The position numbers were made by a program, and so were the translations under genes. The notes under the pieces were generated by a model. It saw only the letters and a list, made by a program, of their open reading frames with translations. It was not told the origin of the DNA and did not search any database. Positions 6,000 to 24,814 of a DNA stretch of 64,000 nucleotides are shown here, one piece after another (within the stretch, counting starts at the first letter, position 1; the number at the start of each line of letters is the position of its first letter). The stretch lies in assembly GCF_002958735.1 (NCBI RefSeq), contig NZ_PPGH01000018.1, positions 62,001 to 126,000 of the forward strand, read 5' to 3'. The DNA comes from Chromatium okenii (GTDB taxonomy: Bacteria > Pseudomonadota > Gammaproteobacteria > Chromatiales > Chromatiaceae).

Positions 6000-6533
6000 A
6001 CACATCGTCGAAGCTGCATTATTTGCCAGCGGCGGTGCACTCACGCTGGCGCAAATTCGGGCGCTGTTTGCTGACGATGAACGTCCGCAACCTGATGAAA
6101 TCCGTGCCGTCATCGCCGAACTCGCGGCGGATTATCAAACGCGCAGCATTGAAATCGCGGAAATTGCGGGAGGATTTCGGATTCAGGTACGCACTGAAAT
6201 TGCGCCGTGGATCGCTCGGCTGTGGGATGAACGTGCGCCGCGTTATTCCCGCGCTTTATTGGAAACGCTGGCGCTGATTGCTTATCGCCAGCCGATCACG
6301 CGGGGCGAAATTGAGGACATGCGCGGCGTGACGGTGAGCACCAGCATGATGCAAACGCTCATTGAACGGGAATGGGTGCGCGTCATCGGGCATCGTGACA
6401 CGCCCGGACATCCGGCGCTCTACGCCACCACCGCACTTTTTTGGAATACTTCGGGCTGCGCTCGCTCAACGATTTACCGAAATTAGCTGAACCCAGCGCA
6501 CCGTTGCCGCTCACCCTGATTCCGCCACTTTGA
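5980..6533 (+). CDS. scpB: segregation and condensation protein B, frameshifted in a T-run
   Basis: Winged-helix partner of ScpA in the condensin-like complex. The ATG at 5980 gives MTTPPLKHIVEAALFASGG, the typical ScpB N-terminus, and overlaps scpA. The conserved LALIAYRQPITRGEIEDMRG is near residue 96. After residues GHPALYATT the annotated frame degenerates. In the neighbouring frame, from the six-T run at 6436-6442, the sequence continues FLEYFGLRSLNDLPKL and stops at 6533, which is the expected ScpB ending. A one-base homopolymer error is the simplest explanation. Corrected length is about 184 residues. Confidence 0.88.
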
Positions 6534-6894
6534 AATAACGCCATGATCGACCAACCACGTATTTCCAGCATCGCACCGCCCGAACACGGCGGACGGTTGC
6601 GTCAAGCTGCTGAACAATTTGGCATTCCGTTGACGAGCTGGCTTGATCTTTCGACTGGATCAATCCGCACAGTTGGCCGGTTCCGCGCTGCCGTTAGCAG
6701 TCTGGCAACGCTTGCCAGAAGATGACGACGGATTGGAAATCGCTGCGGCGCGTTATTACAGCATCGCAGAAAATCCTCTGCCGTTAGCCGGTTCGCAGGC
6801 AGATTCAAGTTTTACCCACGCTGCGCCCACGCAGTCGCGTTGGTGTTCCTGCGATTGGTTATCAAGAACACGCCCACGCATGGCGGCGAGCGGG

Positions 6895-7015
6895 TCATCA
6901 GGTGCTTGAACTGAGCGATGCCGATTTATTTGACCAATCCCCCCCTGCCCCCCTTTTTCTAAGGGGGGAGAATGGCATCATCAGGTGCTTGAACTGAGCG
7001 AAATTTGACCAATCC
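6895..7015 (+). repeat. 83-bp-offset internal duplication of a cobD segment
   Basis: A 24-bp stretch of cobD at 6895-6918 recurs at 6978-7001. A following 13-bp stretch at 6928-6940 recurs at 7003-7015, with 9 bases lost between the two matches in the second copy. Both copies end in AATCC, the edge of a C/G-rich palindromic repeat. The arrangement suggests duplication associated with repeat insertion or slippage. Confidence 0.8.
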
Positions 7016-7074
7016 AAGAGACATCCCTTTGCATCGCAAAGCCCCCCTTTAGCAAAGGGGGGTTGGGGGATTTA
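6936..7074. repeat. paired C-rich/G-rich palindromic repeats inside cobD
   Basis: Two units in inverted orientation. The left unit is about 6936-6970 (AATCCCCCC...CTTTTTCTAAGGGGGG). The right unit is about 7040-7074 (GCCCCCC...AAAGGGG...GGGGGATTTA). Each can fold on itself and the two can pair with each other. The same family occurs near 24260, 28183 and 52871. The pair separates the DLFDQ and FIEQLD parts of cobD. Confidence 0.8.
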
Positions 7075-7693
7075 TCGAGCAGTTGGATGTGCTCGTCGTC
7101 ATCAATCCCAATAATCCCACCGGACACCAGTGGTCAGTGGCAACCCTGCTCGATTGGCATCAACGGTTGGCAGCGCATGGCGGCTGGCTGATTGTGGATG
7201 AAGCGTTTATGGATGCCACGCCGGATGACAGCCTGCTGCCGTATCTCCCTCGCCCCGGTTTAATCGTGTTGCGTTCGCTGGGCAAATTTTTTGGACTGGC
7301 GGGTGCACGAGTGGGATTTCTGTGTGCTGACGAGGAGTTACAAACGCAGGCGCAGATGCAGCTCGGTCCGTGGACGCTGTGCCACGCAGCGCGATGGATT
7401 GCCCGTCACGCGCTGACCGATGCAATTTGGCAAGTTACCACCCGCGACGCGCTGCCTCATGCCTCAGCGCGTTTGGCGAAATTGCTCAGTTATCACCGAC
7501 TGATGCCGACTGGCGGAACGGCGCTGTTTCAATGGGTGCAACGCGCAGATGCAGCGCGGATTTACGTTGCGTTGGCGCAACAGGGAGTTTTGGTGCGCCA
7601 TTTTGCGGAATCGGCAAGTTTGCGCTTTGGGTTGCCGGGTGATGCCAGCGAGTGGCAGCGATTGAGTTTGGCGCTGGCGGCGCTTGTGCACGA

Positions 7694-9527: not shown

Positions 9528-12500
9528 TCAAACATCACAGCGTATGCACCACACTTTTTGACCACTTGGATCAAGCACTTGCGCCTGTGCGATCACTTGT
9601 TGATGATGCGTAAATAAAATGACCTGCGTTTTTGCTGAAAAAGTCATTAGCGCATCGACTGTTGCCCGCGCTCGCGCATCATCAAACTGAATTAAAATGT
9701 CATCTACAAATGGCAACGGCTCGGTTCCTTGCAAATGATGTTCTAAATTTGCCAAGCGCAGCGCCAAATACAATTGATCGCGGGTTCCGGTACTCATGCC
9801 TTCAACGTGTAATCGCTCTCCATTAGCGCGTTGCCCGACTAAAATCGGTTGTTCTGCATCATCAAAACCGCTTTCAACTGCATGAAACGCATTGCAGGTT
9901 AATTGCGCAAAATAACTACTGGCACAGGCTAGAATTGGATCGCGGTGTGTGCGCCGAAAGCGTTCAATTTCATCGCGGAGAATTTTTGCTGCTAATTTCA
10001 ATTGCACATAACGCTCCGCTTGCACCCGCAAAGTTGCCAGCACCGCCTGCATTTCTTCGGCAGCCAGCGCTGCAACATTGTTGCCTTCCATTTCCGCAAA
10101 CTGTCGTTCGGCATTGACTTTTGCCTCCAGCAACGCAACTGCTGCGGACGCAAGTCGTTGTTAATTCGCAATTCCAGCGCTGTCAATTCCGCCAGCACGG
10201 TGTCGCGCTCCACCTTCGCTGCTTCATGGCGCAGCGCGTCAATGCCCAATCCGTCACCGGCAGCCATCAACGCTTCTTCCACATCCTGAAGCTGCTTCTG
10301 CACATTGCGCTGCGTCAACACCTGTTGTTCCACCACGAGCAGCGCCGTTGGATCAGCACAACGCGCCTCGCGGCACAACTCCGCCAGCACTGCGTCCGCT
10401 GCCTGAATCGTCGCTGCTGCCTGCTGAATTTCCGTTTGCGTGCTGTGCGATTGCCGCAACAATTCATCGACACGACTGCGATCTTCGCGCTGTTTGCCCA
10501 ACCGCTGATGCAACTGCATGACTCCGTCAGCCAGCGGACGCGCCAACAAATCCCGTGCTAATCGCGTTAATAGCGCGTTGGCTTCGCCTTGAAATGCCGC
10601 CGCATCGTGATCAATGCCAGTGATCCTGCCTGTTAACCCCTCAGCTTGCTGTAGTTGATGCAAACAATCGTTTAACGTTTTCAAATGATCGGACGCATCG
10701 CCCGGGCTGGCATCGGCGGGCAAACCCAGCTCGATCATCAATGCTGACCACTCGCTCGCCCACGCATTCCGAGCGGCTTGAGTGCGTTCCACTTCCAGCG
10801 CCAGCCGTTGCTGCGCATCTTGCAGCGTCACTAATTCACGTTCCAACTGCGCTCGCCGCCGTTCGGTTTCCGTCCGAGCGGTCAACTGCATTTCGGCTTG
10901 CGCCACAATTTCCCCAAAAGTACAAAAGGTTGCTGGCGCGTCCACGGCTTCCAACGCTGCCGCCAACGCCCGCACATGACCGCGTGACAGGTTTTCTGAT
11001 TCGGTTAACGCCGCACGTTGTTCATCGGCTTGTGCTGCCTGCTCGCGCAACCGATTGGCGCGATGCAACCATGACTGCATCTCACGCGGCGGCAGCGGCT
11101 GCTCCACGCCGCAGGGCAACCACAGCGCCAGCCATGATTGCGCCAACAACTCGCGTTGTTCCTGTTGCAGCGCCAACGTTTGCGCGAGATCGCGCAGTTG
11201 CTGCGTACAGGATTCGCGTCGTGCCTGAGCGGTCGCTTGGTCGTGGACGCGCTGGGCTTCGCGGCGCAACCGATCGGCAATCTGATCGACTTCCGCCACC
11301 GCCAATTCCACCTGCTTCGCCAACGCAGTTTTCTCGGCTTTCGTCGCAGCAGCGAGCGCCGGCGCGGGCGCTTGACTCAAACTGAATTCCGCTGGTTTAG
11401 CGACTGCCGACCGCGAGCGCGGTTCGCTGGCAAACAGCAGCGTTTTCAACTGCTGCAACAGTTGATCGCGCTGATGACGCGCCTGCGCCAGCTCCATTTC
11501 TGACGGCACTGCGCCGACGAGCTGCAACGCCCGTAACGTTTCCTCAATCTGCCGGAGTTGGGAACGCAGCTCCGAATGCGTGGTTTCCGCGCTGCGTTGT
11601 GCATCATCAAGCTCCTGAAATTGTTTGATAAACCGTTCAATTGTGGGCGCATTGGGCAACGGCGCTCGCCGCAGCGCGTCAAGATCAGCCGTCCACAAAC
11701 CCAGTGCCGCCAATTCGCGTTGGCATTCATCATCCGCGCTGTTGTTGTGCCTGCGCCTGCGCGATGGCGCGATCCAAATCACCAGCGCCGCGAGCAGCGT
11801 CAAGCGCGTGACGCAACCCGTCCAACGGTTGACTGATCGGCAATTCAGTTAACGCAGTGCGCAGCCGTTCGCTGCTGCGTGGTGCGTGTGAATTGATGCT
11901 GCGCTTGCGCGACTGCGGCAGCGAGTGCGCCCCGCTGATCACCGAGTTCGCTCACACGACGGCGGCGATTGAGTAACGGACGCAGGCTGGGCGCGTCAGC
12001 CAAAGTCAACGCGGGATGGGTTTGTGCCAGCAGCGCAGCGGCTTGTGCATTAAATCCGTTGCGATCTGCGACCAGTCGAGTGCGGTCCAAGGCGGCTTTG
12101 CGATGACTGCCGAGCCGTTCCAACAGGCTGTCAATCAACTCCGCTTCAGCGAGTAAATCCTCGTGCACGGTCACGGCAACGATTTTTTGTTGCAACACTT
12201 GATCGCGTTCCCGCGCACTGGCTTGGCTGGCAAATGCGGTGGCACGTTGCGACCACGCTGCTTCTCGGCGCTGTCCAAAATCTGCGGAGAGCTGCGGCAG
12301 ATCGCCCAATTCCGCCAGTTGCGCCAGCAATTGCTCGCGGCGAGCGAGATTGGGCAAGGTGCGCCGAATGCGTTCCAAACGACTGCGCTGGCGCGAGGCT
12401 TCAGTTAACGCAGCGTCCAGTTCCAGCACTCGCGTTCGCGCCAGCTCAACCGCTTTGCGGATGTCATCCCACTGTCGCGCCGACAGCGCAAGTTCACGCT

Positions 12501-13092
12501 GGCGGCGTTCTAATTCGGCAAACTGATTCAATTGCTGGTTAATCAAGCGGCTGCTGGAACCACGCCGCGCCGAAAAGAGTTCAACAGCATCTTGATCGAG
12601 ACGTTTGAGCACGGCGTGCAAATTGCCGCCACCCAAGCCTGCGCCAAACAGTGCTTCAGCTTCGCGTCCGCGCTCGGCGAGCAGCGCCAGCCCGCCACTG
12701 ATGAGATTGTCGTGATCAATGCCAAACAGCCGTTCAAACATCCGTTCATCCACGCCGCCGAGCAGCTGCGCCAGCGCGTCATCAGGAAGTGGCGTGTCGT
12801 GTGCATCACGCAGCGTTTGTTTGCGTCCTTTTTTACGGAAGCAGTGCAATTCTTGACCGCTGGCGCTGCGAAAACGTCCGCCGATGCGCAGGTTGGGATT
12901 GGTGTGACGGAAGTTGTCTTGACAGCGTTCGGGAATGCCAAACAGCAGAGCGCGGAGAGCGCGGAGTGCGGAGCTTTTGCCGGCTTCATTGGCACCGAAG
13001 ATGATGTGTAAACCGTGCTCGCCGCCGCTGAGATCAAGATGACCATCAGTAAACGGACCAAAGGCGCGTAGATAAAGCTCAAGAATTTTCAT
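9528..13092 (-). CDS. YhaN-type AAA/SMC-like ATPase, split by three frameshifts
   Basis: Large SbcC/Rad50-like ATPase that pairs with the YhaO-type nuclease downstream of its start. The N-terminus MKILELYLRAFGPFTDGHLD with Walker A GANEAGKSSALRAL is followed by the IGGRFRSASG and FGIDHDNLISGG conserved blocks. A very long coiled coil spans roughly residues 190-980. The C-terminal ABC signature GMSTGTRDQLYLALRLA and Walker B FVDDILIQFDDARARA occur at 9640-9830. Frames change near 11860, 11760 and 10090, so the about 1,180-residue protein is seen in four pieces. Homologs are linked to DNA-end processing and repair, and that role is inferred here. The first 281 codons are duplicated immediately upstream. 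Confidence 0.82.
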
Positions 13093-14030
13093 CAGTCATC
13101 CACTCCGCAATCACGGTCTTGTTCGAGCAGCCGTTCAAATAACGCTGCTTCTCGGCGCTGTCCAAAATCTGCGGAGAGCTGCGGCAGATCGCCCAATTCC
13201 GCCAGTTGCGCCAGCAATTGCTCGCGGCGAGCGAGATTGGGCAAGGTGCGCCGAATGCGTTCCAAACGACTGCGCTGGCGCGAGGCTTCAGTTAACGCAG
13301 CGTCCAGTTCCAGCACTCGCGTTCGCGCCAGCTCAACCGCTTTGCGGATGTCATCCCACTGTCGCGCCGACAGCGCAAGTTCACGCTGGCGGCGTTCTAA
13401 TTCGGCAAACTGATTCAATTGCTGGTTAATCAAGCGGCTGCTGGAACCACGCCGCGCCGAAAAGAGTTCAACAGCATCTTGATCGAGACGTTTGAGCACG
13501 GCGTGCAAATTGCCGCCACCCAAGCCTGCGCCAAACAGTGCTTCAGCTTCGCGTCCGCGCTCGGCGAGCAGCGCCAGCCCGCCACTGATGAGATTGTCGT
13601 GATCAATGCCAAACAGCCGTTCAAACATCCGTTCATCCACGCCGCCGAGCAGCTGCGCCAGCGCGTCATCAGGAAGTGGCGTGTCGTGTGCATCACGCAG
13701 CGTTTGTTTGCGTCCTTTTTTACGGAAGCAGTGCAATTCTTGACCGCTGGCGCTGCGAAAACGTCCGCCGATGCGCAGGTTGGGATTGGTGTGACGGAAG
13801 TTGTCTTGACAGCGTTCGGGAATGCCAAACAGCAGAGCGCGGAGAGCGCGGAGTGCGGAGCTTTTGCCGGCTTCATTGGCACCGAAGATGATGTGTAAAC
13901 CGTGCTCGCCGCCGCTGAGATCAAGATGACCATCAGTAAACGGACCAAAGGCGCGTAGATAAAGCTCAAGAATTTTCATCAGTCATCCACTCCGCAATCA
14001 CGGTCTTGTTCGAGCAGCCGTTCAAATAAC
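12255..14030. repeat. 887-bp tandem duplication spanning the yhaO/yhaN junction
   Basis: Bases 12255-13143 recur as 13142-14030: an 889-bp identical match at an offset of 887, with the copies overlapping by the 2-bp AC. Identity appears complete by reading, and the translations in several frames are the same in both copies. Each unit contains the 3' end of the yhaO-type gene plus the first about 281 codons of the yhaN-type gene. Because 887 is not a multiple of 3, the extra copy ends out of frame. Confidence 0.92.
13092..13979 (-). pseudogene. truncated extra copy of the yhaN-type gene fused to a yhaO tail
   Basis: Encodes 295 residues. The first about 281 are identical to the YhaN-type ATPase N-terminus, including GANEAGKSSALRAL (Walker A). 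The last residues LFERLLEQDRDCGVDD are the C-terminus of the YhaO-type nuclease read through the duplication junction. It lacks the coiled coil, ABC signature and Walker B, so it cannot be a functional ATPase. If expressed, it sits between nuclease and full ATPase gene and keeps the ATPase start and spacing intact for the second copy. It is a direct product of the 887-bp tandem duplication, or of an assembly artefact. Confidence 0.85.
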
Positions 14031-17464: not shown

Positions 17465-17498
17465 ATTAAAAAACCTTGCTTTATCCTGTTAATTCAAT
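17460..17498. terminator. AT-rich inverted repeat between convergent genes
   Basis: ATTGAATTAA at 17460-17469 pairs with TTAATTCAAT at 17489-17498 around a 19-base loop. It covers the stop regions of gloB and of the opposing gene. It could act as a bidirectional transcription stop, although the long T-run of a classical terminator is missing. Confidence 0.4.
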
Positions 17499-17976
17499 CC
17501 CACAGGCGCGGCACACCAATTTCTGTAATCTGCGTTCCTGCATAATTGATCGTGATTTCGCCTTTCAAAAAACTCCAATTCGCCATCAGCGTTATCCGCC
17601 ATTGATTACAAACAGTAAGGGCTTCTGCTGCCTGATTGAGATCAACGCCTTGATGAAATACGACCGCTTGTTTTATTCCGCCAATTTGTGCTGATCGCAC
17701 CACGCCTTGCTTGATGTGAATTGCCGCACAAATCACATTGGAATTCGTTTTATGAGAAGTGAGCAGAACGATACGATCTGCGGGCAATGGAATCGTAAAT
17801 GGCGAACCATTTGCGGTGAATGAAGCAGCAAGCCGCTGTAGCTCACGCTCCAATTGATAACCATCCCAAAACATCAATATCGCCATTCCGCTCATCGAGA
17901 GCACGAAAAATAGTAAAATCCCGCCACTCCATTTCAGCACTGCCATTCGCCATGTCATGGCTGTATTGCTATCCAT
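17494..17976 (-). CDS. unknown protein with one N-terminal membrane segment
   Basis: No family recognised. 160 residues with one strong hydrophobic segment (about residues 14-36, SGGILLFFVLSMSGMAILMF), then a soluble, beta-rich domain likely on the outer side of the inner membrane. The latter includes PLPADRIVLLTSHKTNSN and a C-terminus NYAGTQITEIGVPRL. Its start lies 22 bases inside the preceding gene on the same strand, so it is translationally coupled. It is the last gene of a four-gene minus-strand operon (20594-17494). Confidence 0.55.
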   Translation of the reverse strand: MDSNTAMTWRMAVLKWSGGILLFFVLSMSGMAILMFWDGYQLERELQRLAASFTANGSPFTIPLPADRIVLLTSHKTNSNVICAAIHIKQGVVRSAQIGGIKQAVVFHQGVDLNQAAEALTVCNQWRITLMANWSFLKGEITINYAGTQITEIGVPRLWD

Positions 17977-18539
17977 CGCATTCCACCGTCACGCGAATGC
18001 GCCGCACCAACGCATTGCTCAACAGCATCTATCACCGTTAATTCTAATTCGCTGTGAATACCGCCTTCATCGCGACACCAATTCCATAACACATACCAAT
18101 AATTAATATCTGCCAATTGTTTTTCTGGTGATTGACGCAGCCATTCACTGGAAACAATGATGCGTAAATGGCAATTGTCTGGCACTTGCATTTCTGCTAA
18201 ATGTATAAGCTGCAATCCGTGACGTTGTCCGGCGGCACTTAAAATCCATTTCCGAAATTTTTTCAAATTGTTAGTTTGTCCACGCGGGCGATTAAATGCG
18301 CCAACGATATTGAGCATTACCACGATTCCGGGCGGTATCATCACTGCTAAAAAACCTGCCGTTTCCAGACTAAAATTCAAGTGCATTAAACCTACGGCAA
18401 TCAATACACTTAACGCGACCCAAATCAGAAATAGTGCCAGCATTCCTGCTGCTCGCACTACACTGCGCTTGAAAGTTGATGGAGGGAAAAAATCATCATG
18501 CCAAACGGTGTAATCAAGCGCACAACTGCGTTGGTTCAT
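17955..18539 (-). CDS. unknown protein with two membrane segments
   Basis: No family recognised. 194 residues. Two adjacent hydrophobic segments (about residues 28-52, AAGMLALFLIWVALSVLIAV, and 58-82) form a hairpin. A cytoplasmic or periplasmic domain of about 110 residues follows and contains WLRQSPEKQLADINYWYVLW. The end overlaps the next gene by 22 bases, and the 354-residue gene lies 73 bases upstream on the same strand. The shared strand and tight packing suggest a common membrane-associated function with its neighbours. Confidence 0.55.
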   Translation of the reverse strand: MNQRSCALDYTVWHDDFFPPSTFKRSVVRAAGMLALFLIWVALSVLIAVGLMHLNFSLETAGFLAVMIPPGIVVMLNIVGAFNRPRGQTNNLKKFRKWILSAAGQRHGLQLIHLAEMQVPDNCHLRIIVSSEWLRQSPEKQLADINYWYVLWNWCRDEGGIHSELELTVIDAVEQCVGAAHSRDGGMRWIAIQP

Positions 18540-18612
18540 GTGTCAATCTCATTCGGTAAAAGGTCATTCTAATCGCAATTAATCCGTGCTAACACGGATG
18601 AATTGCTGACAA

Positions 18613-19677
18613 TTATTCAGGAAATGGTGCTTCAAATAATAGATGCTCGGTTACAGCATAAATCCGTAATGTAAGTTGTTCTTTCATGCTAATAAATACA
18701 TTCACGATTGGGCATTGTGCATTAAGTTGATAACGCTGGCGCACCAGACCATTCGCAACGATTAATTCCAATACGATCGGCGTCACGATTTGCCAAACGG
18801 CATGAAGTTGCAGCGCATCGCCACTGGGAATAGGAATAATTTGCAAATTCAACCAGTTGCCTATTTGCCACTGCGTTACGGGTTCCAGCGCAGCACCGTC
18901 GCGTATCGGCTGTAGCACGGGTTCTAATTGCAGATGCCATTGTTGCGCTGCGGCGCGTAAACCGTCACCCATTCGTTCCAACCACGATGACATTGCGGGC
19001 GTTATTACCAATTGTGCTGCGGATAAGCGCACCGCCGCTGCGTTTCGATAGATCGCTTGATATTGATAGCGCAGGTCGTTATCGCTGCCGAACGGTGTGC
19101 CAGTGAGCACGAGTTGACCGCTGTGCGTGACGCGCTGCACCAAACTGCCGGGTTTCGGCGCAATGTCGAGCGATTCGCCCGCGCAGTATTCCGCTGCAAG
19201 ATCGTGCACTGCCACCAATCGCTGCGGTGCGAGTTCGCCCAACGCTGCCTGTGCTTCGTGCGGATCACATTGCGCTGGATTCCAACACTGCACCATGGCG
19301 ACCAACGGATCGCAGGGCGCGTCGCACAGCTCCAGCACCAGATCGGCGGCGCTGGCGTAATCAGTTTCATGAGCGCACAGATAACCGCGCCAACATTTTG
19401 ATTTAATTGGCTCTGTGAGCAACACCGCCAGCGGTTGCGCATTGCCGTGCACTGGCGAATCCATGCGCACAATCAATCCGGGGCGTGGCGTTAAATTGCC
19501 ATGCTGCGCAGCGGCGGAAATGCGAGCGGCAATCGCTTCAGCAAGAAATACCGGCATTGGCAACACATCGTCGTCATTGTCATCGTTAAATGTCGCATCA
19601 ACTTCAGGCGCGTCACTAAACGGTTCTGGAAAGATATTCGATTGAATAATACTCAATTGAGAAAAGAATTGCGGCAT
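18613..19677 (-). CDS. unknown 354-residue protein
   Basis: No family recognised. Acidic N-terminus (NDDNDDDVLPMP near residue 33), then a predicted globular protein without signal peptide or membrane segment. A cysteine-bearing stretch LCDAPCDPLVAMVQCWNPAQ lies near residue 114 and a Trp/Leu-rich region QWQIGNWLNLQIIPIP near 272. A GGAGAG ribosome binding site precedes the ATG at 19677. It lies 45 bases after the sigma-like gene and before two small membrane protein genes. A cytosolic partner of those membrane proteins is possible but cannot be shown. Confidence 0.6.
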   Translation of the reverse strand: MPQFFSQLSIIQSNIFPEPFSDAPEVDATFNDDNDDDVLPMPVFLAEAIAARISAAAQHGNLTPRPGLIVRMDSPVHGNAQPLAVLLTEPIKSKCWRGYLCAHETDYASAADLVLELCDAPCDPLVAMVQCWNPAQCDPHEAQAALGELAPQRLVAVHDLAAEYCAGESLDIAPKPGSLVQRVTHSGQLVLTGTPFGSDNDLRYQYQAIYRNAAAVRLSAAQLVITPAMSSWLERMGDGLRAAAQQWHLQLEPVLQPIRDGAALEPVTQWQIGNWLNLQIIPIPSGDALQLHAVWQIVTPIVLELIVANGLVRQRYQLNAQCPIVNVFISMKEQLTLRIYAVTEHLLFEAPFPE

Positions 19678-19722
19678 GAGGCTCTCCGTGCGAAACGATG
19701 ATAAGCGTTGAGGCGATCAAAG

Positions 19723-20594
19723 TTAAACCATCGCCTGCTGATGTAACGCGACTAGACAGAGAATTTTCAATGCAATTCTAATTTCAAAACGATGTTCTGC
19801 ATCAATAGTGATTCCCAAGCTCGTTAACCATTCACCGCAATAACTAGAATGAAAACTGCGCATTGCTGCATCATTATGTTTGGGAACGTGGAGACCAAAA
19901 TTGACGATGCGAGAATAATATGAAGGCATGGGATAACATTTTGATAATTCAAATAAAGATGAATAGTCATCGCCAGTTGCGCAGAAATGTTTAGTGAGAT
20001 ACAAATGAATCCACCACAGATGTTTATTGAGTTTTTTCCACTGCTTCTTTGCTTGCAGAAAATCCTGAGCCGCAATGGTAATCTGGTCTAAATCAATCGC
20101 CAAATTTTTATGAAATGCTTGTACTAAATCTGGGGCAATGCGCCCGGTTTTCACTTCTAATTCTAGCAGATTTAAGAGCAATTCTTGATCTTTTTCATCA
20201 TGATTAGCAATGAAATCATCAAACGATTTTTGATCTTGGTATTGCTGTGCTTGATCGGTTTCATTGCCATCTTGATCACTAAAATAAATTGGATCAAACA
20301 CATTTTTCAAAGCACGTTGCTTGTCAATCAGATAATTACGGTAAAAACTAACTAATGCTCCTGTGTGATAAATCTGGCTGTAACTATTCGCAGTGATGTA
20401 AACCTTATCAAAAATAAAATCATTGATATAATCATCGCTTTCATTAGGCAAAGTGTTGATTATTTGTAAACATTTCCACGCAGTACGTGAAAAATAAGGT
20501 GATAAAAGTTGTTCCATTCTGCTTCGTTAAGACGAGCACGTCGCTGCCAAAAATCAATGAGTTGGGCGCTAAGTTCCTGTTGGTGAACTGACAT
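19723..20594 (-). CDS. possible sigma-factor-like protein, frameshifted
   Basis: Tentative call. An ATG at 20594 with a GGAG site starts MSVHQQELSAQLIDFWQRRA. After one base is restored in the T-run near 20505 this joins the long frame with FSRTAWKCLQIINTLPNESD, then DDYINDFIFDKVY and GALVSFYRNYLIDKQR. The spacing and pattern recall sigma-70 region 2, but no -10-binding aromatic cluster can be assigned with confidence. The C-terminal half (about residues 170-290) has no recognised motif. Corrected length is about 289 residues. The DNA is AT-rich. As first gene of a four-gene operon it may be a regulator. Alternative: a wholly unrelated helical protein. Confidence 0.4.
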
Positions 20595-20752: not shown

Positions 20753-20828
20753 AATCAAGAAAATTGAGGTAAGTAACAGCTTGCAATAATCTATACATAT
20801 CTAATAAAATCTATACTTATGGAAAAAA

Positions 20829-21052
20829 TTAGTAAAGATAGGTGAAGCGGCAAAAATTTTGGAAATGTGTGTAAATACATTGCGTCGATGGGAAGCGTCG
20901 GGCGAATGAGTCCCAACGCGAAAAACGCCAAGTGGAACACGTTACTACAGCGTTGCTGAATTGATGAACGTAGGTGAAATACGGTGTGTTACGCTCGCGT
21001 TTTAAGTTACGACCAAAAAGAAGATTTGCAGGCTACGTTGAATAAATTTTAG
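20829..21052 (+). pseudogene. tnpA: remnant of IS607 TnpA serine recombinase
   Basis: The first part reads VKIGEAAKILEMCVNTLRRW, the MerR-like helix-turn-helix of IS607 TnpA. An in-frame stop replaces the codon after EASGE, followed by VPTRKTPSGTRYYSVAELM. In another frame, YARVLSYDQKEDLQ (about 20990-21030) matches the start of the serine recombinase catalytic domain, with the active Ser retained. The rest of the catalytic domain is missing, and tnpB begins about 25 bases later. The element cannot transpose by itself. Confidence 0.75.
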
Positions 21053-21076
21053 ATGTGTTGATTGAGATTAGAAACC

Positions 21077-22179
21077 ATGTTACTGGCACACAAAATTGAA
21101 TTGCGCCCCACACCTGAACAGATGGTGTATTTGGATAAAGCCTGTGGCTCCAAACGCCATTGCTATAATCAATTATTGGCGCATTTTTCAAAACCAGAAA
21201 ATAAGTGGTCAAAAAACGAAGCATATCAGCATTACATTAACGTACTTCGTAAAGAATTTGACTGGTACAACGAAGTTTCAAGCCGTGTTACCCGCAATGC
21301 AATTGATGACTTAGATACCGCCTTTAAGCACTTTTTTAGGCGCGTCAAAGCCAAACAAAAAGCAGGTTTTCCACGCTTCAAAAAGAAAGATTTGCGTGAT
21401 AGTTTTGCGTTGCGTGAATCGGCTAAATTTGATGTTATCGGTTGTGAATTGCGGATTGAAAAACTCAAAACTAAAATTGAACTGCGTCAACCGTTACGTT
21501 TTCAAGGCATCGCAAAACAAGTCACGATTTCTAAACGCGCTGGAAAGTATTTTGCTGCAATTTTAGTTGAAACAGAAGACTACAATCCCCACGATGTTGA
21601 TCGCCAACACTCAGTTGGGTTGATTTTGGTATCAAATCACTTGCCGTTTTAAGCACAGGTAAAGTGTTTTTTGCCAATCAAAAGTTGAAAGCCAGTTTGA
21701 AAAAGTTGGCAAAACTTCAACGCAATTTAACCAAGAAAGTGAAGAATTCAAACCGTCGAGCGAAAGCCAAGCTGGCAATTGTAAAACTTCATTTTCGTAT
21801 TGCACGACAACGACAAGCCTTGTTGCATGAATTGTCGGATTATCTGACTAAAAACTTTGACGTGATTACGATTGAAGATTTAAACGTTAAAGGCATGTTA
21901 AAAAATCGAAAACTCAGTCGCGCTATCAGCGATGCTGGTTTTGGTTATTTACGGCAGATGATTGAATACAAGGCTAAATTGAGAAATTGTGTCATTGTTA
22001 TCGCAAATCGATTTTTTCCCAGCAGTAAAACATGTTCCTGTTGTGGAAAAATCAAAACAGATTTAACGCTGGTAGATAGAATTTTTAACTGCGCGTGTGG
22101 ATTTAGCGCGGATAGAGATTTGAACGCCGCGCTCAATCTAAATCAATACGGTCTGGACACGCTTACAGCCAGACCTTAA
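21077..22179 (+). pseudogene. tnpB: TnpB RNA-guided nuclease (IS607-associated), frameshifted
   Basis: Ancestor-type of Cas12. The N-terminal part (21077-21652) reads HKIELRPTPEQMVYLDKACG. A frame change near 21615 falls within RuvC motif I, where the other frame gives DFGIKSLAVLSTGK. RuvC II is IEDLNVKGM (Glu), the zinc ribbon is CSCCGK...CACG, and RuvC III is DRDLNAALNLNQ (Asp). All catalytic acids can be found if one base is restored, so the break may be a sequence error, and a homing nuclease could remain active even though TnpA is dead. The about 110 bases after the stop up to the right end are where an omega RNA would be expected. Confidence 0.8.
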
Positions 22180-23269: not shown

Positions 23270-23348
23270 TTGAGATAATCCTGAAAGAGATGGGCGTTTG
23301 ATCTTAGGATTCAGTCGTGGTCATCGCAATTGTGTTGAGGAATTTGTC

Positions 23349-24346
23349 GTGGCAAAACCATCGCTGAACGCTAAACGTTCGTTCACAGCGGTCATTAAAG
23401 AGCGGCTGGCGCAACAGCTTGTCCGGTTGCTGGCGCGACTGCCGCTGGCGCTGCTGCATCGGCTCGGCGCAGCAGTCGGGTTGCTGGTGCAATGGTGGCC
23501 AAACCGCCAGCGCCGCAATGCGTTGATTAACATCGCATTATGTTTGCCGCATCTCAGCCGTCAGCAGCAGCTTGAACTGCGCAATCGCAATCTGCGCGAG
23601 TTCGGTAAAACCTACTTTGAGATTGCATATCTGTGGCGACGCCCGCTCGATCAAGTGCTGGCGCTGGTGCGCGAAGTGCGCGGCGCAGAATGGTTGCAGC
23701 GCCAGCCCGGTCAAGGCTTGATCGTGCTTTCGCCGCATTTGGGCGCGTGGGAATTGGCGGGGTTATATCTGGCAGCGCAGGGGCCGACCGCGATTTTTTA
23801 TAAACCGCAACACTATCTTGACGCGATGATCGTGAAGCACGCGGGCGCAGCGGCGCTGAATTAGCGCCGATCACTGCGAAAGGAATTCGGGTTTTGGTGC
23901 AGGCGTTGGAGCGCGGCGAGGCGGTCGGCATCCTGCCGGATCAAGAGCCGAAAGCCGATAAAGGTGCGGTATTTGCGCCGTTTTTTGGGATTCCCGCGTT
24001 CACGATGTTGCTGGTGAATCGCCTCGCTCGCCGCACCGGAGCGCCGGTGATTTTTCTGTTTGCCGAACGGCTGGCAAATGACAGCGGTTTTCGGTTGCAC
24101 TGTTTACCTGCGCCGGCGGGCATTGATAGCGCCGATGATATTGAAGCTGCCGCTGCGCTCAATCGCGGAATTGAGCAATGCGTGATGACCTGTCCCGAAC
24201 AATATCTGTGGCCATACAAACGCTTTCGGCGGCGTCCGGCGGGCGCAGCGAAGATTTATACCAAAATCCCTAACCCCCTTTTGCTAAGGGGGGAAATGTT
24301 CGTCTTTAACGATTTTTTGATTGCTTTGGAGATTGCATCATGTTGA
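23349..24346 (+). CDS. lipid A biosynthesis (LpxL/HtrB-like) acyltransferase, frameshifted
   Basis: Transfers a secondary acyl chain to lipid A or a related lysophospholipid at the inner membrane. The start is the GTG at 23349 with GAGG upstream. An N-terminal hydrophobic segment ([20 protein letters not shown]) precedes the catalytic HX4E motif [12 protein letters not shown] near residue 130. The frame breaks near 23863: in the next frame, [20 protein letters not shown] and [20 protein letters not shown] follow. A single indel restores about 320 residues. The 3' end runs into a C/G-rich repeat (24262-24296), which adds about 20 abnormal residues and brings the stop 3 bases inside the ispF start region. 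Confidence 0.85.
24262..24296. repeat. C/G-rich palindromic repeat at the acyltransferase 3' end
   Basis: Single unit reading AAAATCCCTAACCCCC, then CTTTTGCTAAGGGGGG. The CCCCCTTTT/AAGGGGG arms can form a hairpin. Same family as the units at 6936-7074, 28183-28218 and 52873-52964. The open reading frame of the acyltransferase passes through it. Confidence 0.75.
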
Positions 24347-24814
24347 TTGGACAGGGCTTTGATGCCCATCGTTTTGCGCCGGGACGCCGGTTGATTCTGG
24401 GCGGATTGGATATTCCGCATGAGCAGGGGCTCATTGCCCATTCTGATGGCGATGTGCTGATTCACGCGCTGTGCGATGCGCTACTCGGCGCGGCGGGGCT
24501 GGGTGACATCGGTCATCATTTTCCTGATACCGATCAAGCATTTGCCGGCATTGACAGCCGGATTTTGCTGCAGCGCGTGATGGAGTTTGCGCGAGCGCGG
24601 ACTCGCCGTACACAACGCCGACATGACGATCATCGCCCAGCAGCCCAAGCTCGCACCGCACATTTCGGCGATGTGCGAAATCCTCGCCACCGATCTTGGC
24701 TGTGCGCTGGCGCGGGTGAATGTCAAAGCAACCACGATGGAGCACATGGGTTTCACTGGGCGCGGCGAAGGCATTGCTGCATCTGCAGTCGTGCTGTTGA
24801 CGGAATCGGCATGA
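24340..24814 (+). CDS. ispF: 2-C-methyl-D-erythritol 2,4-cyclodiphosphate synthase, frameshifted
   Basis: Fifth enzyme of the MEP isoprenoid pathway. It forms homotrimers with zinc at the active site. [19 protein letters not shown] (Asp and His ligands) and [20 protein letters not shown] are near the start, with [13 protein letters not shown] near residue 46. The frame changes near 24597; the second frame gives [18 protein letters not shown] and ends [20 protein letters not shown]. Restored length is about 158 residues, the family norm. The gene is essential in MEP organisms, so the shift is probably an error. The stop overlaps the truD start (ATGA). Confidence 0.9.

Follow-up and report, generated by a model that had tools for sequence, protein, structure and literature searches.

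The 64,000-nucleotide stretch of the Chromatium okenii genome analysed here (hereafter the window; contig NZ_PPGH01000018.1, positions 62,001 to 126,000) carries a cluster of four open reading frames (ORFs), which a reading of the sequence alone, the original prediction, had described as one operon of a sigma-like protein, a soluble protein and two small membrane proteins. The follow-up analysis concerned mainly the first two, genes 1 and 2, which were found in relatives together with the gene of a caspase-clan protease of the CHAT type. The locus comprised the following features, given in the order of transcription.

20463..20594, minus strand: the N-terminal 43 codons of gene 1, in another frame than the main ORF; this piece matches residues 1-43 of intact relatives
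19723..20517, minus strand: main ORF of gene 1, 264 residues, sigma region-2 fold predicted for the protein; a frameshift separates it from the N-terminal piece
18613..19677, minus strand: gene 2, 354 residues, MazF/PemK fold plus C-terminal beta-sandwich (structure model and fold match), candidate anti-sigma factor
18540..18612, minus strand: junction 3' of gene 2, where relatives have the CHAT gene (~2.4 kb); no CHAT coding sequence left
17955..18539, minus strand: gene 3, 194 residues, two-helix membrane protein in the place of CHAT; not in the conserved module
17494..17976, minus strand: gene 4, 160 residues, one-helix membrane protein, from hydropathy and comparison with C. weissei

The window is part of a 327-kb contig in an assembly of 45 contigs and 3.78 Mb (88.7% complete, 13.6% contamination), and its organism is a close kin of Chromatium weissei (Chromatiaceae). 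The general description of the locus was partly confirmed. Gene 1 is AT-rich with a GC content of ~35%, a TnpB-type insertion sequence (IS) lies directly upstream of it (21062-22179, split), and genes 3 and 4, with approximately two and one membrane helices predicted from hydropathy, share 22 nt. The IS-type element as a whole occupies 20800-22179, its TnpB gene being split at 21652/21664, and an apparent decayed start of a MerR-like or recombinase gene, judged by eye, stands directly before the TnpB gene. Searches of the window proteins against Pfam, NCBIfam, PADLOC and PHROGs gave nothing useful, the PDB sequence searches with all profiles gave no meaningful match, and gene 2 had no match in the plasmid and viral collections.

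The start at position 20594 assumed for the first gene had to be corrected, as this position belongs to another frame. The 43-residue piece and the 264-residue ORF are one protein divided by a frameshift; gene 1 of the relatives is a single continuous ORF of ~290 residues, and both window pieces match consecutive parts of it (the N-terminal piece at profile positions 2-47, E 4e-15). The LpxL-like and IspF genes in the window (23298-24808) are each frameshifted as well when compared with C. weissei, and are otherwise ~83-95% identical. As these housekeeping genes are affected too, the shift in gene 1 is probably an assembly indel or a sequencing error, and it was rejected as firm proof of decay.

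A profile of gene 2 was searched against 210 genomes of the order (Chromatiales, going by the lineage of C. weissei), a sample of 369 genomes of the class and a sample of 398 genomes of the phylum. Matches were obtained in 17 of the 210 genomes, representing 10 genera, with one more in the class sample and one more in the phylum sample; the order thus held nearly all of the genomes with the module. In 17 loci, the window counted, gene 1 immediately preceded gene 2, and 13 loci showed gene 1, gene 2 and the CHAT gene in this order on one strand, the latter two mostly overlapping. Two of the 13 were incomplete, with CHAT truncated (L008) or gene 1 cut by the contig end (L040). A 14th three-gene locus (L045, genome G482) had an intact CHAT gene upstream of gene 1 and an internally deleted CHAT remnant in the usual place (6768-7394, 10460-12715). 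Gene 2 encoded 335-426 residues across the loci.

The CHAT proteins were usually 740-800 residues long, and two divergent ones had ~650-680 residues. Only one member (L010) exceeded the cut-off of the CHAT model PF12770 (26.5 bits vs 24, E 5.5e-6), with weak matches in several others. Nevertheless, His184-Gly and Cys219, corresponding to the His/Cys dyad, were invariant in all 13 aligned rows, and behind the CHAT domain lay repeats that gave a weak match to TPR. In a distant gammaproteobacterium (G934), relatives of gene 1 (E 1.3e-31) and gene 2, the latter with a predicted membrane helix at residues ~270-289, were followed by an ORF for a C14 caspase (PF00656, E 1.6e-8) that shortly overlapped gene 2 and started with a hydrophobic stretch like a signal peptide. 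The same pair of genes 1 and 2 therefore precedes two different caspase-clan proteases.

The four ORFs on the minus strand of the window, although real, did not form one conserved operon, and this part of the original prediction was rejected. Only genes 1 and 2 co-occurred elsewhere; genes 3 and 4 did not accompany them across the relatives and are outside the conserved unit. No full-length relative of gene 3 was found in 53 related genomes, and its short weak matches in two of them (G002 and G003) were uninformative. Gene 4 had a counterpart, 62% identical, in C. weissei only, where it follows an intact CHAT gene, and it is probably a neighbour of the module and not its member.

The window copy was compared with that of C. 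weissei. Genes 1, 2 and both flanks aligned at 75-84% DNA identity, and the 2.4-kb CHAT stretch of C. weissei was replaced by ~740 bp containing gene 3, with breakpoints joining window positions 18617/17879 to positions 6052/8494 of the C. weissei locus (L007). The protease gene has been lost from the window copy. The possibility that gene 3 is a remnant of CHAT was rejected, as no CHAT similarity is left at that site, and the whole assembly, incomplete as it is (88.7%), yielded no relative of CHAT. Against C. weissei, gene 1 had a ratio of nonsynonymous to synonymous substitution rates (dN/dS) of 0.096 and gene 2 one of 0.165, comparable to 0.065-0.16 for the neighbouring genes. These values fit purifying selection on both genes since the split from C. 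weissei, although most of the underlying divergence may be older than the loss of the protease.

AlphaFold models were built from the alignments made in this analysis, with the intact C. weissei orthologue representing gene 1. The gene 1 model had a predicted local distance difference test score (pLDDT) of 78.6 and a predicted template modelling score (pTM) of 0.53. Residues ~5-102 were superposed by VIA-align on region 2 of SigC with Z 8.6 and a root-mean-square deviation (rmsd) of 2.7 over 87 of 88 residues. The best 17 rows were all sigma factors or sigma complexes, row 18 (Z 4.1) was a phage RNA polymerase chain, and the first clearly unrelated row had Z 3.4. A sigma region-2 fold is thus predicted for gene 1. 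The assignment rests on the fold because the Foldseek E-values were poor and sequence profiles gave nothing. The earlier suggestion of a sigma-70 region 2 was accordingly upheld at the level of the predicted fold, but with no sequence-profile match and no region-4 fold listed. Following a linker disordered in the model (residues 100-132), the C-terminal half was helical and contained a conserved helix-turn-helix-like stretch, SLxxLARRHxIPSYHxKAVKLGIT. The region-2-like part of gene 1 is present twice in one genome (G030; L011:12846-14021).

The gene 2 model (pLDDT 81.0) consisted of a MazF/Kid barrel at residues ~60-170 and a C-terminal beta-sandwich at ~269-351. The best match of the barrel to MazF had Z 9.4 and rmsd 2.6 over 101 residues, all 50 of the matches listed were of the MazF type, and genomic MazF proteins also gave a weak, collinear match at the profile level. 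On inspection of the motifs, Arg before the conserved Pro was found in just 3 of 17 rows and the PxT motif was not found. Gene 2 was not classed as an ordinary MazF toxin because the catalytic Arg (RP) and Thr (PxT[S/T]) motifs were not kept. Nine loci had an extra small gene upstream, which in most cases adjoined or overlapped gene 1. Its product was not recognised by Pfam; an Arg and a Pro-x-Thr, present in all nine rows, corresponded to the RP and PITS motifs of MazF in a weak profile match.

The module was located beside CRISPR components in at least six genomes. In G428 it formed one operon with cas6, which overlaps the CHAT gene, in a type III-D locus that also encoded Cas10d, three Cas7-type subunits, Csx10, Csx19, a Csx1-type CARF nuclease, a reverse transcriptase (RT), Cas2 and Cas1 together with arrays. 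The module of G482 was accompanied by arrays, RT-Cas1, Cas10 and Cas7/Cas5 subunits, those of G517 and G418 by Cas1 and arrays within ~8 kb, that of G429 by Cas6 and CARF-RelE/CARF-ADA genes, and that of G478 by a CARF-ADA gene, long arrays and a Cas6-like ORF. When only strong Cas1 matches were counted, four modules lay within ~8 kb of Cas1 vs 0.135 expected (Poisson P ~1e-5, the four modules, from four genera, being assumed independent), indicating a link of the module to CRISPR loci above chance. A Cas10 palm model applied as a census of type III systems was inflated by GGDEF-type matches and was dropped from the statistics. Neither Cas1 in the window assembly nor a CRISPR array in the window was found.

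Several further genes were noticed around the module. A protein of ~820-930 residues and of no known family adjoins it in four genomes (L043:1779-4562, L044:12386-15163, L046:10790-13240 and L048:10729-13203), with 62-79% identity over the last ~810 residues; in L046 and L048 it comes after an NYN-domain gene divergent from gene 1. This recurring protein is a candidate target or additional member of the system. In G517, the place of CHAT after gene 2 is taken by a protein of ~524 residues that is hydrophobic close to the C-terminus (L047:6033-7607), and a similar ORF lies close to gene 2 and CHAT remnants in G516 (L053:858-2626). In G004, which has neither gene 1 nor gene 2, a leftover C-terminal part of CHAT containing a stop codon directly adjoins a CRISPR array (L042:8423-9812). 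Elsewhere in the window, an SbcC-like gene (11845-13979) has its N-terminal ~890 bp in a tandem duplicate, which may be an assembly artefact.

Taken together, genes 1 and 2 may form one half, sigma and anti-sigma factor, of a transcription switch that is triggered by a protease and serves defence, a reading to which we assign a probability of roughly 0.5. In the most economical reading, gene 1 would be a divergent sigma factor resembling those of the extracytoplasmic function (ECF) group, and gene 2, with a MazF-like barrel that is probably no longer an RNase, would act as its anti-sigma factor and keep it inactive. In the complete copies, the downstream protease (CHAT with TPR-like repeats, or C14 in the one distant relative) would be activated by invasion or stress and cut gene 2, and the released sigma factor would switch on defence genes. 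At the CRISPR loci the trigger would be target recognition by the type III system. Because the protease gene of the window copy was lost, with two membrane-protein genes standing in its place, the switch there would be an orphan regulator or respond to another trigger. The arrangement parallels two published circuits. In one, CASP-sigma is inhibited by Csx30, which the CHAT protease Csx29 cleaves (PMC10028731); in the other, CalpL cleaves the anti-sigma factor CalpT to free CalpS (PMC11417357), a 23-kDa fragment of CalpT resembling MazF (PMC9704534). The regulator and anti-regulator layout suggested earlier is plausible, but the partners of the regulator would be gene 2 and the CHAT protein of the relatives instead of the membrane proteins.

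Gene order, co-occurrence, the folds, the catalytic motif of the protease, the proximity to CRISPR and the loss of the protease were obtained by computation; sigma activity, binding between genes 1 and 2, cleavage and trigger are inferred. Several points weigh against this interpretation. For gene 1, the Foldseek E-values were 1.6 and worse and the pTM was limited to the value given above, no sigma family was matched in Pfam/NCBIfam, a profile-profile comparison with sigma factors gave nothing in a search that was underpowered, with controls that partly failed, and a region-4 fold was not among the structural matches listed, which does not exclude one. Pfam scans recognised no cyclic-nucleotide sensor in the CHAT protein. 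The window copy itself has no protease, approximately two-thirds of the modules, those of the nearest relatives of the window among them, showed no CRISPR gene within the stretch analysed, and the small MazF-like gene of the nine loci could point to a toxin-antitoxin logic.

This last point leads to an alternative, in which a MazF-fold protein, the small upstream one or gene 2, is an RNase restrained by a partner in the module, and its release by CHAT cleavage arrests or kills the cell as in abortive infection. The fully kept Arg and Pro-x-Thr of the small protein, the MazF fold of gene 2 and the original interpretation of the MazF-like Calp fragment as a toxin (PMC9704534) agree with it. We nevertheless regard it as improbable; the window and several complete modules, that of C. 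weissei among them, do not have the small gene, gene 2 has lost Arg and Thr by motif, and the gene always kept beside gene 2 has a sigma fold, not that of an antitoxin. It was considered about equally unlikely that gene 1, instead of being a working sigma factor, has a structural or DNA/RNA-binding role with a helical bundle like that of sigma-2; the module would then be a protein-conflict complex, with phage or host proteins as the targets of its protease. Such a role would agree with the lack of sequence similarity to sigma families, the disordered linker, the C-terminal half to which no fold was assigned and the doubled region-2-like part in G030. It is opposed by the clear separation of the sigma rows, 17 of the 17 best, from unrelated structures (Z 8.6 vs 3.4), by the order of sigma, anti-sigma and protease shared with two published systems, and by the conserved helix-turn-helix-like stretch in that same C-terminal half.

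Two other explanations concern the window copy alone. It may be a decaying remnant without function, which is a serious alternative, if less probable than a retained role, as the CHAT gene is gone, gene 1 is frameshifted and an IS is inserted upstream of it. Against decay, the dN/dS values of 0.10 and 0.165 resemble those of the neighbouring housekeeping genes, with the above reservation on the age of the divergence, the frameshift is probably an error shared with LpxL and IspF, and the assembly is only 88.7% complete. Alternatively, the four window genes could be a membrane-signalling operon of their own, in which genes 3 and 4 replace the protease as sensor or anti-regulator. Their tight spacing on one strand as intact ORFs and the position of gene 3 exactly at the former CHAT site would suit this idea. 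It appears very unlikely, since in the genomes searched gene 3 had no full-length relative and did not accompany genes 1 and 2 outside the window, and gene 4 adjoins an intact CHAT gene in C. weissei. The alternatives of a toxin-antitoxin system, a non-sigma gene 1 and a non-functional window copy are in part compatible with each other.

No description of a set of CHAT, MazF-fold and sigma-like proteins was found in the literature searched; as the main reports on Calp and SAVED-CHAT were outside its reach, an earlier description is possible and the novelty of the gene set is provisional. With this reservation, the protease-triggered switch might, as a tentative and rather doubtful extension, represent a novel family of immune switches. 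The anti-sigma factor would be a MazF fold that is devoid of its RNase motif, and interchangeable CHAT and C14 proteases would free the sigma factor, in some genomes inside type III-D CRISPR loci and in others alone; the lineage of the window would keep the pair under a different, membrane-linked control. The module is more interesting in the relatives, and the window copy without protease is of limited interest. Cultured purple sulfur bacteria offer testable candidates, including the complete copy in C. weissei, and the module bears on the purpose of the transcription response in protease/sigma systems.

The statement that no known family fits was right as far as sequence families are concerned, but in its layout the module is a close parallel of the Calp and Craspase circuits. 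The Calp system of type III CRISPR (the SAVED-Lon protease CalpL, CalpT and CalpS) has the same three-part logic and likewise combines a sigma-like protein with a MazF-resembling partner (PMC11417357; PMC9704534), and some copies of the module also lie in type III CRISPR loci. In contrast, the module proteases are CHAT or C14 instead of SAVED-Lon, with no Pfam match to SAVED or Lon, many copies are away from CRISPR, and nine loci have the small MazF-like gene. Craspase with the type III-E CASP proteins (Cas7-11, the TPR-CHAT protein Csx29, Csx30 and CASP-sigma) similarly unites a CHAT protease, an ECF-like sigma factor and an intervening partner in one set (PMC10028731). The CHAT domain of the module is, however, N-terminal with the repeats behind it. 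Furthermore, no Cas7-11 was found beside the module, by models run on G428 and G482 and by ORF lists for the other loci; G428 and G482 have separate Cas7/Cas5/Cas10 subunits, and the gRAMP model gave only a cross-match. Gene 2 is a protein of MazF fold and beta-sandwich with 335-426 residues, vs 565 for Csx30. With respect to homologues of Csx30/Csx31, profiles A4-A6 had no sequence match in the PDB set, a comparison that did not include Csx30 itself. The SAVED-CHAT/prokaryotic caspase cascade of type III-B (Haliangium) also ties CHAT and caspase-clan proteases to type III CRISPR (as mentioned in PMC11229360), and the module is set apart by having no recognised SAVED domain. MazF/PemK toxins share the fold of gene 2 at residues 60-170 and the motif of the small upstream protein, and differ in the Arg/Thr motif, which gene 2 has not kept, in the additional C-terminal domain of gene 2, and in its neighbours, which are not MazE. 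Calp and Craspase appear to reach one circuit, the release of a sigma factor through proteolytic cleavage of an inhibitor, by means of different parts. The module would be a third set, combining the CHAT protease of Craspase with the MazF-fold partner of Calp and occurring also without CRISPR nearby. If true, this would point to a broader class of protease-controlled sigma switches that CRISPR loci have recruited.

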